From Wenzhouxiangella sp. XN24 (GTDB taxonomy: Bacteria > Pseudomonadota > Gammaproteobacteria > Steroidobacterales > XN24), in assembly GCF_011064545.1 (NCBI RefSeq), contig NZ_JAAMFG010000036.1:434001-498000 (forward strand): a stretch of DNA of 64,000 nt, given 5' to 3'. The position numbers were made by a program, and so were the translations under genes. Below are positions 42,693 to 48,012 of the stretch, in pieces. Position 1 is the stretch's first letter. Each line of letters starts with the position of its first letter. Below the pieces are notes generated by a model that searched no databases, was not told the DNA's origin, and was given only the letters and a program-made list of their open reading frames with translations.

Positions 42693-43793
42693 CTAGAGCC
42701 GCATCGGCATCACCACGTACTTGCAGTCCCGCCGTTCCGGATCCTGGATCAGGCAACTGCTTGCGGAATCCCGGAACTCGAGCCGGACCGACTCGGCGTC
42801 GAGCGCGCGCAAGGCCGCGATGAGGTATTCGACGTTGAAACCGATCTGCATCTCGGGGCCTTCGTACTGGACCTCGATCTCTTCCTCCGCCTCTTCCTGC
42901 TCGGGATTGTGCGCCTGGACGACCACGCTGCCCGCTTTCAGCTCCACGCGCACGCCTTTGTACTTCTCGTTCGCCAGGATCCTGATCCGATTCAGGCCGT
43001 CGGCAAGCAATACCCGGTCGGCGAGCATCGGCGCTTCGCTCTGTTTCGGGATCACGCGATCGTAATCAGGGAAGCGGCCGTCGATCAGCTTCGAGGTCAG
43101 GCGGATACCACCGAGCGCGACGCGCAGGTGATTGGTGCCGATCTCCAACGTGCATTCGCCGTCCTCGCGGATCAGCCGCTGCAATTCCAGCACGCCTTTG
43201 CGCGGCAGGATGACCTGTTGGGGCGTCGAATCGGCTTCCGCCACCGTCAGTTCGCACAACGCGAGGCGATGCCCGTCCGTGGCTACACTTCGCACGATCG
43301 GCCCCGCGATCTCCAGCAGCATGCCGTTCAGGTAATAGCGGACGTCCTGGTTCGCCATGGAGAACTGCGTTTTCTCGATCAGGCGTCTCAACTGTGCCTG
43401 TGGGAGGACCACCTGCTGTTGTGCGTTGATGTCTTCGACCGTGGGAAACTCCTCGGCCGGCAAAGTGGACAAGGTGAAGCGGCTTCGCCCGGAACGGACC
43501 GTCACCTTGTCACCCGAGAGGGTGAATACCACCGATGCTCCATCCGGCAGCGCCCGACAGATGTCCAGCAGTTTCCGTCCCGGCACAGTGATCTCGCCGC
43601 CCGTGTCGACTGTCACATCAACCGAAGCGACCAGCTCGACCTCCAGGTCGGTGGCCGTCACCGCCAGGCCGGCCCCTTCTTTTGCGACCAGAAGGATATT
43701 GGCCAGTACCGGCATGGTCTGTCGTCTTTCGACCACACCGATGACGGCCTGGAGCGGTTCGAGCAAGGTCTCTCTGGGGGCGCTGAACTTCAT
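42693..43793 (-). CDS. dnaN: DNA polymerase III beta sliding clamp
   Basis: The ring-shaped processivity clamp, 366 residues as in E. coli, with three repeated clamp domains. Visible segments are MKFSAPRETLLEPLQAVIGVVERRQTMPVLANI (in pieces), LPAEEFPTV, and the C-terminal peptide-binding groove ending YVVMPMRL. The ATG at 43793 has AGGTGG about four bases upstream. It is separated from dnaA by a 219-base gap that looks like the origin. Confidence 0.98.
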   Translation of the reverse strand: MKFSAPRETLLEPLQAVIGVVERRQTMPVLANILLVAKEGAGLAVTATDLEVELVASVDVTVDTGGEITVPGRKLLDICRALPDGASVVFTLSGDKVTVRSGRSRFTLSTLPAEEFPTVEDINAQQQVVLPQAQLRRLIEKTQFSMANQDVRYYLNGMLLEIAGPIVRSVATDGHRLALCELTVAEADSTPQQVILPRKGVLELQRLIREDGECTLEIGTNHLRVALGGIRLTSKLIDGRFPDYDRVIPKQSEAPMLADRVLLADGLNRIRILANEKYKGVRVELKAGSVVVQAHNPEQEEAEEEIEVQYEGPEMQIGFNVEYLIAALRALDAESVRLEFRDSASSCLIQDPERRDCKYVVMPMRL

Positions 43794-44012
43794 CGGTCCA
43801 CCTGTAGGCAATTAAATTAGATGGTTTATAGAGAATTTACTGTTGTTACTGTTAATGGGCTCCATTCTTGTGGATAAACCCTGTTTACTCAATAATTTCA
43901 TATGATTACGAGGAACCGAACCTTGTGTTCACCCGGCCTCCGAAGCACTTGCCATCCTGTGGACGAACTGTGGATAGTTTGCTGTCATGAAGTTATCCAC
44001 ATGTTGTCCACA
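43794..44012. other. Candidate chromosomal replication origin (oriC) between dnaA and dnaN
   Basis: Five DnaA-box-like 9-mers fall in 219 bases: perfect boxes at 43869-43877 (TGTGGATAA) and 43993-44001 (TTATCCACA), and near-boxes at 43969-43977 (TGTGGATAG), 44004-44012 (TTGTCCACA) and 43959-43967 (TGTGGACGA). Next to them, 43808-43860 and 43880-43915 are very AT-rich for this genome; the first holds a tandem 9-mer TTACTGTTG/TTACTGTTA at 43837-43854, which fits an unwinding element. The site also contains the dnaN promoter. Xanthomonas and one of the two Pseudomonas origin-like regions use the same position. Confidence 0.75.
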
Positions 44013-45386
44013 TCAAGCCGTCAACGTTCTCAACAGGTTTGCGTAATCTTCCCGCATTCGCATGTCGGTTTCACGTAAATCCTTGATTCTTTTGCAGGCG
44101 TGCAGGACCGTCGTATGGTCCTTCCCGCCGAAGGCATCGCCGATTTCCGGATAGCTCCGCTCCGTAAGCTCCTTCGCGAGCGACATGGCCACCTGGCGAG
44201 GTCTCGCGACCGCGCGATTGCGGCGCTTCGACATGAGATCGGCCACCCGGATCTTGTAGTACTGCGCTACCGTCTTCTGGATGTTCTCGATGGTGACCAG
44301 GCGATCCTGCAGCGACAAGAGGTCGCCGAGCGCTTTCTTCGCAAAATCCATGGTGATCTCGCGATCGAGAAAACGCGAGGTCGCGATCACACGGCGCAAC
44401 GCGCCTTCGAGTTCCCGGACATTGGAGCGGATCCGCTTGGCGATCAGGAAGGCGACCTCCGAGGGCAGGGTGACGCCTTCGAAACTCGCTTTTTTCATCA
44501 GGATGGCGACACTCGTTTCGAGCTCCGGTGCCTCGATCGCCACGGTGAGTCCCCACCCGAATCGCGTCTTCAGGCGATCCTCGAGGCCGTCTACCTCCTT
44601 GGGGTACCGGTCGCATGACAACACGATCTGCTGGCGTTCCTCGAACAAGGCGTTGAAAGTGTGGAAGAATTCTTCCTGGGAGCGCTCCTTCCCGGCAAAA
44701 AACTGGATGTCGTCGATCAGCAGTGCATTGAGCGAACGGTAGCTGCGCTTGAACTCGTCGATGCGGTTGTTCTGCAGTGCGCGGACCATGTCGCTGACAA
44801 AGCGTTCCGAATGGACGTACGCCACGCGCGCGCCCGGGTTCTCCCGGAGGATACTGTTGCCGATGGCATGCATCAGATGCGTCTTGCCCAGCCCCACCCC
44901 ACCATATAAGAAAAGGGGGTTGTAGGACCCGCCCGGATTGACGGCCACCTGGAAGGCGCCCGCGCGGGCCAGCTGGTTGCTCTTGCCCTCCACGAAGCTC
45001 TCGAAGGTGAAATCGGGGTTCAGCCGCGCGCCGGTGACGAAATCCGTCGGCGCCGCCGGCGCATTGCGACCCGCGGGGGCGGCCGGCCGCACCGGCGCCA
45101 CCAGCGGGGCCGTGTTGCCGCCCACCCGTGTGCCGACATCGATGGAGACATCGAACGGGCGCCGGTTCGCGCTCTCCTCACCTGTCAGCTCGCGGATGCG
45201 CGCCAGGCAATTCTGGCGCAGCCAGGTCACGACGTACGGGTTGGGCGCGAGCAGGCGCAGGGCTTCGCCATCGCTCACGGCCTGCAACGGCGCGACGTAT
45301 GTGTTGAACTGGTCCGGAGACAGTTCACTGCGAAGCCTGTTGAGACATTGGTGCCAGACGGCCGCCACGTTGCGTCCTGCGTTCAT
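44013..45386 (-). CDS. dnaA: Chromosomal replication initiator DnaA
   Basis: A 457-residue AAA+ initiator. Domain I (1-80) begins with [26 protein letters not shown]; a Pro/Ala-rich linker follows; Walker A is GGVGLGKTH (162-170); the DnaA signature and domain IV DNA-binding helix are in the C-terminal part ([36 protein letters not shown], split). It melts oriC and loads DnaB. The ATG at 45386 opens the dnaA-dnaN-recF-gyrB series. Its promoter should lie in the 180-base gap to rpmH. Confidence 0.98.
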
Positions 45387-45428
45387 CGGATCCCGGGAGG
45401 CTCTGCAGTCTATCTTGCCGGGCCCGGG

Positions 45429-45437
45429 TTATCCACA
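45429..45437 (+). promoter_or_regulatory. DnaA box in the rpmH-dnaA gap
   Basis: A single perfect TTATCCACA, 43 bases before the dnaA start. One box alone suggests autoregulation of dnaA rather than an origin. Confidence 0.65.
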
Positions 45438-45471
45438 GGCCGGCGGCCGCCTGGGCGGCGACCGAATCCGG

Positions 45472-45500
45472 TTGACACCCTGCCGGGGCCCACGTACGAT
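45472..45500 (+). promoter_or_regulatory. Sigma-70 promoter of rpmH
   Basis: TTGACA at 45472-45477 and TACGAT at 45495-45500 are 17 bases apart. Transcription would start near 45507, giving a leader of about 60 bases to rpmH. Confidence 0.8.
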
Positions 45501-45566
45501 TCCCCGTCTTTTTGGCGGGACTCGGACCGAGCCGCCAACGGCCCCCTCTCGGACGGAAACAGTACG

Positions 45567-45701
45567 ATGAAACGCACCTATCAACCGAGCAATCTGCGAC
45601 GGAAACGGACGCACGGATTCCGTGCCCGCATGGCTACCAAGAATGGTCGGCTGGTGCTGTCCCGCCGGCGCGCCAAGGGCCGCGCCCGCCTCGCAGTCTG
45701 A
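45567..45701 (+). CDS. rpmH: 50S ribosomal protein L34
   Basis: A 44-residue, very basic protein ([18 protein letters not shown] at the start, then [19 protein letters not shown]) with the exact family plan. It begins the rpmH-rnpA-yidD-yidC-mnmE series. The ATG at 45567 follows GGACGG-AAAC. Confidence 0.97.
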
Positions 45702-45747
45702 ACTTCCGGCTGCGGGTCCGCCTGCCAGGCACCGAGCAGTCGATCCC

Positions 45748-46116
45748 GTGCCGTCGCTGGCGTTCACCCGGGCCCAGCGCCTGCTGAAGCCCGAACAGTT
45801 CACCCGCGTATTCAGGACAGGCCGTCGCCGCGGCGACGCATGTTTCACGGTCATCGCCACCAGCGGCCCCGGCCCTTCCGCCCGCCTGGGCCTCGCGGTT
45901 TCGAAGAAAGTCTCGAAATCGGCCGTGCAACGCAACCGGATCAAGCGTCTCGTGAGAGAATCCTTCCGCAAACACGGTGCAGACTACGGCAAACTCGACA
46001 TCGTCGTCATGGCGCGACCGGGCGCCGCGGGCTGCGATAATGCCGCGCTCACCAACAGCATCGACACTTTGCTAGAACGGACGGCCCGCTTATGCGACGC
46101 ATCGCGATCTTCCTGA
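45748..46116 (+). CDS. rnpA: Ribonuclease P protein component
   Basis: A 122-residue basic protein that helps the RNase P RNA mature tRNA 5' ends. The core [19 protein letters not shown] and the RNR motif [16 protein letters not shown] are clear. The start is a GTG at 45748, which puts the conserved region at residue 4; the frame is open further upstream but that part overlaps rpmH. It overlaps yidD by 25 bases. Confidence 0.93.
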
Positions 46117-46343: not shown

Positions 46344-48012
46344 CCAGCGCGTCTTTCTCTGGATCGCACTGGCGCTCATCGTCTGGCTGAATTACGCGGC
46401 CTTCGTCCAGTACCAGCGCCCCGCAGCCGAACAGTCCCCTGCCGCGACCGACGAACGGCTGGAGGGGGACGCCCCGGCGTTACCGAGTGAGACCACCATC
46501 GGGCCGGCACCGGCGGATGAAGCGATCCCGCTGCCGCCGGGCACCGGCGCCGCTGCGCCGGCCGATACGGCTGATACCTCTGCCCCGGGTGAGCGCCGCA
46601 TCCAGGTCCGCACGGACGTTCTGGACCTCGAGATCTCGTTGCGCGGCGGGGATCTCGTCAAGGCGCTGCTGCCCGAGTACCCCGTCAACAAGGACGCCCC
46701 GGACATCCCGGTCCAGCTGCTCGATCCTTCGGCGGACAGCCTGTACGTTTTTCGTACCGGGCTGACGGCCACTGCGCCGGAGACCTCGACGCGTCCGGAC
46801 ACGCTGTTCGTCGCACCGGCCATGGAATACGTCCTCGATGCCGGCCAGGAAACACTGGAGATTCCCCTGACGGCGGTGCTGGACAACGGGGTCACCGTCA
46901 CGAAGATCTACCGCTTCACGCGCGGCAGCTACGCGGTGGAGCTCGAGCAGCAGATCGAGAACGCGGGCGAGCAGCCCTGGACGGGTGCGAGCTACCTGCA
47001 GATCCGTCGCATGCATAACCCGCCGGGGCGCGGCCTGACCAACGTCGACAGCTACTCTTTCCAGGGGCCGGTCACCTTCAATGGCGAGAAATACGAGAAA
47101 CTCGACGTCGGCGATCTCGCCAGGACCCGCGAGTCCTTTACGACCGCCGCGGGGTGGATCGCGTCCATCGAGCACCACTTCCTGACGGCCGCCGTGCCGA
47201 ATGGCCGGGCGGAGATTTCCGCCGCCGCGACGCCCGCCGGGCTGTACACGATTACGGCCGTGCGCATGCCCGAGACCGTCGCGCCGGGCCAGGCCGACAG
47301 CTTCCGCGACCAGTTGTTCGTGGGGCCCAAGCTGCAGGACCAGCTGGAGGCCACGGCGCCGAGGCTGCGGCTCACCGTGGACTACGGCTGGCTGACCGTC
47401 ATCTCGCAACCCCTGTTCTGGGTGTTGTCGAAAATTCATGGTCTCGTCGGCAACTGGGGCTGGGCGATCGTCCTGATGACCCTGCTGATCAAGCTGGTGT
47501 TCTACAAGCTGTCGGAAACCAGCGGCAAGTCGATGGCCAAGATGCGCAAGTTGCAGCCGCGCATGAAGTCGCTGCAGGAACGCTACGCCGACGATCGACA
47601 GAAGCTGTCGCAGGCGATGATGGAGCTGTACAAAAAAGAGAAGGTGAATCCGGCCGCCGGGTGCCTGCCGATTCTCGTGCAGATGCCGGTCTTCCTGGCG
47701 CTCTACTGGGTGCTGCTCGAGAGCGTGGAGATGCGCCAGGCGCCGTTCATGCTGTGGATCGACGACTTGTCCACCCGGGATCCTTTTTTCATCCTGCCGC
47801 TCGCCATGGGCGTGACGATGTTCATCCAGCAGAAGCTGAACCCCGCGCCGCCCGATCCGATCCAGGCGAAGATCATGCAGGTGTTGCCGGTCGTGTTCAC
47901 GGTGTTCTTCGCGTTCTTCCCTGCCGGCCTCGTGCTGTACTGGTTCGTCAACAACCTGCTGGCGATTCTCCAGCAATGGCACATCAACAAGGTGGTGGAA
48001 CGCGGCGGCTGA
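46336..48012 (+). CDS. yidC: Membrane protein insertase YidC
   Basis: A 558-residue insertase: an N-terminal helix (about 5-22), a Pro/Ala-rich linker, a large periplasmic beta domain (about 85-340), then five membrane helices with the hydrophilic groove ([61 protein letters not shown]). It inserts membrane proteins alone or with SecYEG. Start ATG at 46336 overlaps yidD. The acidic linker is typical of the Gram-negative form. Confidence 0.97.

Follow-up and report, generated by a model that had tools for sequence, protein, structure and literature searches.

The dnaA locus and its DnaA boxes

The 64,000-nucleotide stretch of DNA analyzed here (referred to as the window) contains the genes rpmH, dnaA and dnaN, which are separated by two intergenic gaps (Table 1). 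The gap between dnaA and dnaN is the proposed chromosomal replication origin, oriC. It harbors five DnaA-like boxes, two of which are perfect, two of which deviate at one position and one at two positions. The two perfect boxes are found in opposite orientations with 115 bases between them, while one of the single-mismatch boxes (TTGTCCACA) touches the stop codon of dnaA. These features had been described in the initial annotation, as had a tandem 9-mer at positions 43837-43854, which upon alignment with relatives is read as a degenerate DnaA-trio tract. The same annotation had assigned a single box to the gap between rpmH and dnaA (45387-45566), and one perfect box is indeed found there.

Boxes with at most one mismatch number 10 in the window, compared to 2.9 expected from shuffled sequences (none of 100 shuffles reached 10), and four of the ten fall inside the dnaA-dnaN gap. 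Nowhere else in the 400 kb of contig examined are boxes packed as closely as here, with four such boxes in 220 bp compared to two in the runner-up; i.e., the gap displays the above-chance cluster of DnaA boxes that is characteristic of a DnaA-dependent origin.

Table 1. Positions of genes and sequence elements around dnaA in the window
Feature	Position	Strand	Remark
dnaN (beta clamp)	42693..43793	-	start at 43793
dnaA-dnaN gap, proposed oriC	43794..44012		219 bp
Predicted unwinding element	43809..43908		lowest duplex stability of any 100 bp in the 400 kb examined (nearest-neighbour energies)
Match to model R1	43834..43907 (C36:477834-477907)	-	sole match in own genome at E ≤ 10; E 4.2e-6, 28.4 bits
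Degenerate DnaA-trio tract TTAACAGTAACAACAGTA	43838..43855	-	
Spacer, R1-like box to trio tract	43856..43868	-	13 nt, length conserved
Perfect DnaA box TTATCCACA, R1-like	43869..43877	-	beside unwinding element
IHF-like site TAATCATATGAAA	43896..43908	-	7/9 defined positions of YAANNNNTTGATW
DnaA-like box TCGTCCACA	43958..43966	-	two mismatches
DnaA box CTATCCACA	43969..43977	-	one mismatch; faces boxes at 43993 and 44004
Perfect DnaA box TTATCCACA	43993..44001	+	distal group
DnaA box TTGTCCACA	44004..44012	+	one mismatch; abuts dnaA stop
dnaA	44013..45386	-	stop codon begins at 44013
Perfect DnaA box, rpmH-dnaA gap	45429..45437	+	single; probable dnaA autoregulation
rpmH	45567..45701	+	

An A+T-rich, unstable element adjoins the boxes of the dnaA-dnaN gap. 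Using 50-bp windows, the gap is the second least stable site in 400 kb, and its duplex energy per 100 bp is -116 kcal/mol compared to -158 kcal/mol for the rpmH-dnaA gap, as calculated from published nearest-neighbour values. No GATC site, the target in SeqA sequestration, was found in 43794-44012, and there was no Rfam match within 43000-46000.

Along the strand of dnaA, the elements of the gap are arranged in the order IHF-like site, 18 nt, DnaA box, 13 nt, DnaA-trio tract (the IHF consensus is WATCAAnnnnTTR in the accessible part of PMC10380432). Both IHF subunits are encoded in the window's own genome, with scores above curated cut-offs. A trio test on the window's own gap gave 2/5, which is no better than shuffled sequences, and the assignments of both the trio tract and the IHF site depend on the alignment with relatives. 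When a composite score for the entire module was calculated for both strands of the 400 kb, the dnaA-dnaN gap was the only place with a score of at least 17 (it scored 19).

GC skew

Because the genome is divided into 37 contigs, GC skew was determined from 400 kb of the contig that carries the window (C36:117645-517644) and from pieces of relatives. The window is found near the right end of this contig (517,644 bp). The cumulative skew reaches its minimum in yidC (window position 47311), in neither of the two gaps and 3.3 kb away from that between dnaA and dnaN; the trough is flat, with only 39 kb remaining to the right. Least-squares change points are found to the left of the gap, at C36:457645 or C36:392645 (distances of 20 and 85 kb), and the contrast between left and right is weak (p 0.03, 61 versus 8 blocks). 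In a relative of the same genus (G002) the 400-kb minimum (C28:643670) is also found about 3.3 kb from the dnaA-dnaN gap, on the same side as in the window.

For two members of the order with a complete chromosome, 20 stretches each were sampled. In one of these (G033) the skew changes sign between 2.655 and 2.790 Mb, i.e., within 135 kb, which brackets dnaA at 2.687 Mb. In the other (G052), where dnaA is found at 3.463 of 3.467 Mb, the skew is negative ahead of dnaA, is still -0.013 at 5-25 kb past the gene and is positive by 0.175 Mb, which places the sign change no farther than about 180 kb from dnaA, although the samples do not strictly bracket the gene. A single-contig genome of the same family (G006, 80% complete) displayed no skew minimum at dnaA and is uninformative.

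The skew check proposed in the initial annotation thus points to the neighbourhood (to some 3 kb in two congeneric genomes, but only at scales of up to 180 kb in the order), with the change points on the window's contig 20 and 85 kb away, and does not extend to the choice of gap: the two gaps are 1.4 kb apart, so that GC skew is unable to tell them apart.

Gap classes and conservation of the module among relatives

A total of 110 dnaA loci were compared, 30 from the order of the window, its own genome included, and 80 from named records. Both dnaA and dnaN could be placed in 109 of these (the exception is L106). The length of the dnaA-dnaN gap falls into two classes, with 52 loci at 184-317 bp and 57 loci at 0-96 bp. 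Of the 52 long gaps, 49 contain one or more boxes with no more than one mismatch (the exceptions are L025, L053 and L058, the last being a long gap without a box in Salinicola). In the short class, one of the 57 dnaA-dnaN gaps contains such a box; here, boxes are mostly found on the rpmH side, where the rpmH-dnaA gap is mostly 400-700 bp long and often richer in boxes.

In a DnaA tree that was built quickly and is unrooted, one group of 53 rows comprises 51 of the 52 loci with a long gap, and the trait requires 4 changes compared to a mean of 36.5 with shuffled labels; because the tree is unrooted, it does not give the direction of relocation. One of the long gaps (L053, 197 bp) originates from a contig labelled as a Klebsiella pneumoniae MAG, but its DnaA groups with the window's order, i.e., this is likely a mislabelled bin.

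When aligned on the strand of dnaA, most long gaps display an IHF-like motif, 18 nt, a box, 13 nt and repeats similar to CTAATAATAAT, which are the DnaA-trio motif. The same-genus relative L003 carries AATAACAGTAATA, a trio of Alteromonadales according to the accessible part of PMC7174414. The full trio score of 5/5 was obtained for 9 of 51 distinct gaps and for none of 1020 shuffled sequences, where the score is strand-symmetric and therefore uninformative on direction. A spacing of exactly 13 nt between box and tract was found in 17 of 33 gaps, i.e., those of the 51 in which the best box has at most two mismatches. In the relatives, trio tract and DnaA box keep a fixed spacing. When the IHF consensus was searched for independently of the boxes, perfect matches were obtained in 11 of the 51 gaps, compared to 9 of 1040 composition-shuffled sequences, and in 1 of 51 gaps on the other strand. 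Nine of the 11 matches are found at gap position 101-105; an IHF site at a fixed distance, beyond R1 as seen from the DUE, is conserved in relatives. In two relatives of the same genus (L003 and L004) the R1-like box is decayed, while the alignment is read as retaining the IHF-like motif, both spacings and the trios.

The loci with a long gap often also carry a box on the rpmH side. At least one perfect box is found there in 35 of the 52 loci, mostly 50-125 bp ahead of dnaA and in one orientation, which looks like a conserved box of the dnaA promoter. Alternatively, this recurrence could reflect a bipartite origin in which both gaps act jointly through a loop across dnaA. Such an arrangement would resemble that of B. 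subtilis, where two box regions flank dnaA (PMC13220808, accessible part), and it overlaps with the explanation preferred here, as the dnaA-dnaN part would still be the one that opens. We consider it rather unlikely: usually there is one box on the rpmH side, 17 of the 52 loci harbor no perfect box, the rpmH-dnaA gap of the window lacks an unstable element, and autoregulation of dnaA is a simpler account of the box.

Searches with model R1

A sequence-only model of the module (model R1, 77 positions) was built from 26 training loci, with the window and its genus left out. In the window's own genome (3.29 Mb, 37 contigs) its sole match is found in the dnaA-dnaN gap (Table 1); in the rpmH-dnaA gap of the window there was no match even at E ≤ 10.

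The absence of a match on the rpmH side bears on a second alternative, according to which the origin is of the Pseudomonas type and resides in the rpmH-dnaA gap, while the boxes between dnaA and dnaN merely titrate DnaA or regulate dnaN. This location is compatible with the skew, offers a perfect box, would make dnaA co-directional with its replication fork, and is the side on which genomes with short gaps mostly carry their boxes. Nevertheless, in these genomes the dnaA-dnaN gap is shorter than 100 bp and the rpmH-dnaA gap has the larger size and, often, the higher box number given above, while the rpmH-dnaA gap of the window is stable, has an A+T content of only 31% and contains a single box. 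An oriC at this position was rejected on the basis of composition, box number and the absent R1 match, and we regard it as very improbable.

In the order, a best match at E ≤ 0.01 was found in 38 of 59 genomes (the window's own included), with 21 genomes having none. In 37 of the 38 genomes the best match adjoins the 3' end of dnaA; 18 of these 37 genomes contributed to the training of R1 and 19 did not. In the 38th genome (G031) the best dnaA match is only E 2.6e-6. At the level of the class, 89 of 185 genomes gave a match at E ≤ 0.01 and 96 did not. In 54 of the 89 genomes, which include the window's own genome and one training genome (G012), the best match is located 3' of dnaA, no more than 500 bp away, and in every case shares the strand of this gene; other class genomes may overlap with eight named training loci. 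In 8 of the 89 the best match lies 5' of dnaA at a distance of up to 1500 bp and is invariably on the opposite strand. The remaining best matches are located on another contig (13) or farther away on the contig of dnaA (6), and in 8 genomes a position of dnaA is absent among the matches listed.

In all 62 best matches that are adjacent to dnaA in the class, the unwinding end points away from this gene. The orientation rule is broken by a second match in G095 (E 0.0036), which shares the strand of dnaA although it lies 50 bp 5' of the gene. In a 624-kb set of 59 loci, all seven matches below E 0.001 are opposite to dnaA and weaker ones are found on both strands, e.g., that of L114 (E 0.008) on the strand of dnaA.

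Twenty of the 27 best matches that are not beside a listed dnaA were inspected, i.e., all but those of G077, G088, G095, G099, G112, G154 and G231. Three of them (L248, L261 and L275) are dnaA-dnaN gaps, one (L282) is found between rpmH and dnaA and is opposite to dnaA, three (L276, L278 and L286) reside ahead of rpmH with dnaA not close by, and one (L281) ahead of mnmG. At L254 and L289 (G116:C37) the module is kept next to dnaN, while dnaA is found on a different contig; on the far side of the module are genes that resemble those of sigma-54 activators. Several of the 20 matches adjoin unrelated genes (pgi, mlaE and a lipase gene, dapF and glyA, an ankyrin gene, a ketoacyl synthase gene, priA) and may be false. 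A strong match of this group (L273, G135:C11, E 3.7e-8) is located upstream of a phosphoglucose isomerase gene and close to the end of its contig; G135 itself gave no dnaA match at E ≤ 1e-40. One bin contains two distinct dnaA genes, each with its own module match (G003:C98 and G003:C165), and is probably a mixture of two organisms.

Another pair of perfect, inverted boxes is found 73 kb from the gap (C36:404508), and it gives substance to a third alternative, in which the gap is only the promoter of dnaN and a DnaA-regulated leader, while the origin is elsewhere, e.g., at this pair. The site has no R1 match and fewer boxes than the dnaA-dnaN gap, and in the two complete chromosomes of the order the skew changes sign at dnaA or within the distance given above. 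This alternative is the least credible of those considered. The pair itself (L034:1501-1530, C36:404508-404530) consists of two perfect boxes that face each other across 5 bases, with an adjoining near-box, and is flanked by genes that, by reading only, we take to be rpmE and hemW. In another genome (G239, L272) the IHF-to-box part only of model R1 matches upstream of priA, so that a DnaA/IHF site could be a conserved feature of the rpmE-priA region.

Placement of the probable origin and proposed mechanism

On the basis of sequence data we take the dnaA-dnaN gap to be, with a probability of about 0.9, the site at which replication of the chromosome starts. This assignment, which agrees with the choice of gap made in the initial annotation, is supported by the box cluster, the duplex instability and the sole R1 match. 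The dnaA-dnaN gap is chosen over the rpmH-dnaA gap because the conserved IHF-18-box-13-trio module is found there, and its order, spacing, instability, conservation and uniqueness under model R1 are all seen in the data. Relatives likewise have a long, box-bearing dnaA-dnaN gap; the proposed origin is ordinary in kind and its location is common. The weak points are the degenerate trios and the IHF site with 7/9 positions here, and the decayed R1-like box in two relatives of the genus.

The layout along the strand of dnaA would be that of distal boxes by the dnaA stop, an IHF-like bend site, the R1-like box, the spacer, the trios and dnaN. By analogy with work on E. coli and B. subtilis (accessible parts of PMC10380432, PMC6669920 and PMC13220808), protein binding, bending, opening and origin activity can be predicted as follows. 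DnaA-ATP would occupy the distal boxes (43958-44012) and the R1-like box at 43869, and IHF would bend the DNA near 43896-43908, bringing the two groups of DnaA together. The duplex would then open over the trio tract (43838-43855), where DnaA would retain one of the strands, and the helicase would be loaded.

What is gained is that the origin is placed and that a count of boxes is turned into a searchable module that singles out one site in a 3.3-Mb genome. Our literature search, with most subscription journals outside its reach, found no statement on the spacing of the module or on the split in location, and novelty is unproven.

Comparison with known origins

The oriC of E. coli K-12 has the same order, orientation and spacing as the gap of the window, i.e., IHF site, 18 nt, R1, 13 nt and trio-like CTAATA. 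On the mioC-to-mnmG strand (L240) it reads CAGGTTGTTGATC, 18 nt, TTATCCACA, 13 nt, CTAATAAG, where CAGGTTGTTGATC is the reverse complement of GATCAACAACCTG, the IHF site of E. coli oriC (PMC4285127, accessible part). For the 13-bp spacer of E. coli, length is more important than sequence, and changes by 1-2 bp are damaging (PMC8235120, accessible part). Model R1 matches the box-to-trio part of E. coli oriC with E 0.0015 (624-kb set, 59 loci); the other perfect box of E. coli also scores 18, so that the composite score is not specific there. The two origins differ in location, that of E. coli being found between mnmG and mioC. The E. coli origin, which has a short trio stretch, also contains eleven GATC sites (PMC10380432, accessible part), compared to none in the gap of the window.

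The geometry shared with E. coli oriC suggests a portable ancestral core. As judged from these sequences, the IHF-R1-DUE core of E. coli may be an old, relocated module rather than an enterobacterial invention. More specifically, the IHF-18-R1-13-trio arrangement could be an ancestral gammaproteobacterial dnaA-dnaN module that later reached mnmG and the rpmH-dnaA gap as one unit of unchanged spacing, a reading to which we assign slightly less than even odds. It is about as tentative to propose, as part of the same reading, that the unwinding end faces away from dnaA wherever the module stays beside this gene. The direction of movement is one that we infer, with an unrooted DnaA tree and a comparison confined to genomes and loci of the class Gammaproteobacteria.

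In the accessible parts of two earlier papers the IHF site is considered to be a later addition in E. coli, the origin of which diverged from the ancestral system (PMC6669920), and IHF bending is suggested to remove the need for trios (PMC13220808). These ideas become testable, as an IHF site and trios co-occur at a fixed spacing in many dnaA-dnaN gaps. If the ancestral reading is true, IHF and trio tracts would long have worked together in a single mechanism rather than replacing each other.

B. subtilis resembles the window in the dnaA-dnaN location, in a box placed by the trios and in distal boxes that possibly loop (PMC6669920, accessible part). It differs in that the window has an IHF-like site and the 13-nt spacer, while B. 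subtilis is without IHF (PMC13220808, accessible part).

Among the Gammaproteobacteria, Chromohalobacter (L067, E 5e-9) and Marinobacter (L099, E 9e-8) harbor the module in the rpmH-dnaA gap, 5' of dnaA and, unlike the window, on the opposite strand. R1 matches at Pseudomonas loci are weak or absent. In SAR86 (L111-L114) the dnaA-dnaN gap is 0-3 bp and the rpmH-dnaA gap is short; at one of these loci a module is found between mnmE and mnmG (L113:1370-1435, E 4e-8), as if the origin resided at an E. coli-like place.

The arrangement in the window had initially been described as Xanthomonas-like. The origin of Xanthomonas reportedly has a dnaA-dnaN-type location, and the description holds for the location, as seen in the Luteibacter gaps: L115 and L117 have a dnaA-dnaN gap of 213-214 bp with two boxes and are similar to the window in location and length. 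Their box and trio tract are weaker, with module scores of 16 and 14 compared to 19. As a label, however, it is too narrow, because 54 of the 89 class genomes with a match are alike in this respect and the internal layout resembles that of E. coli.
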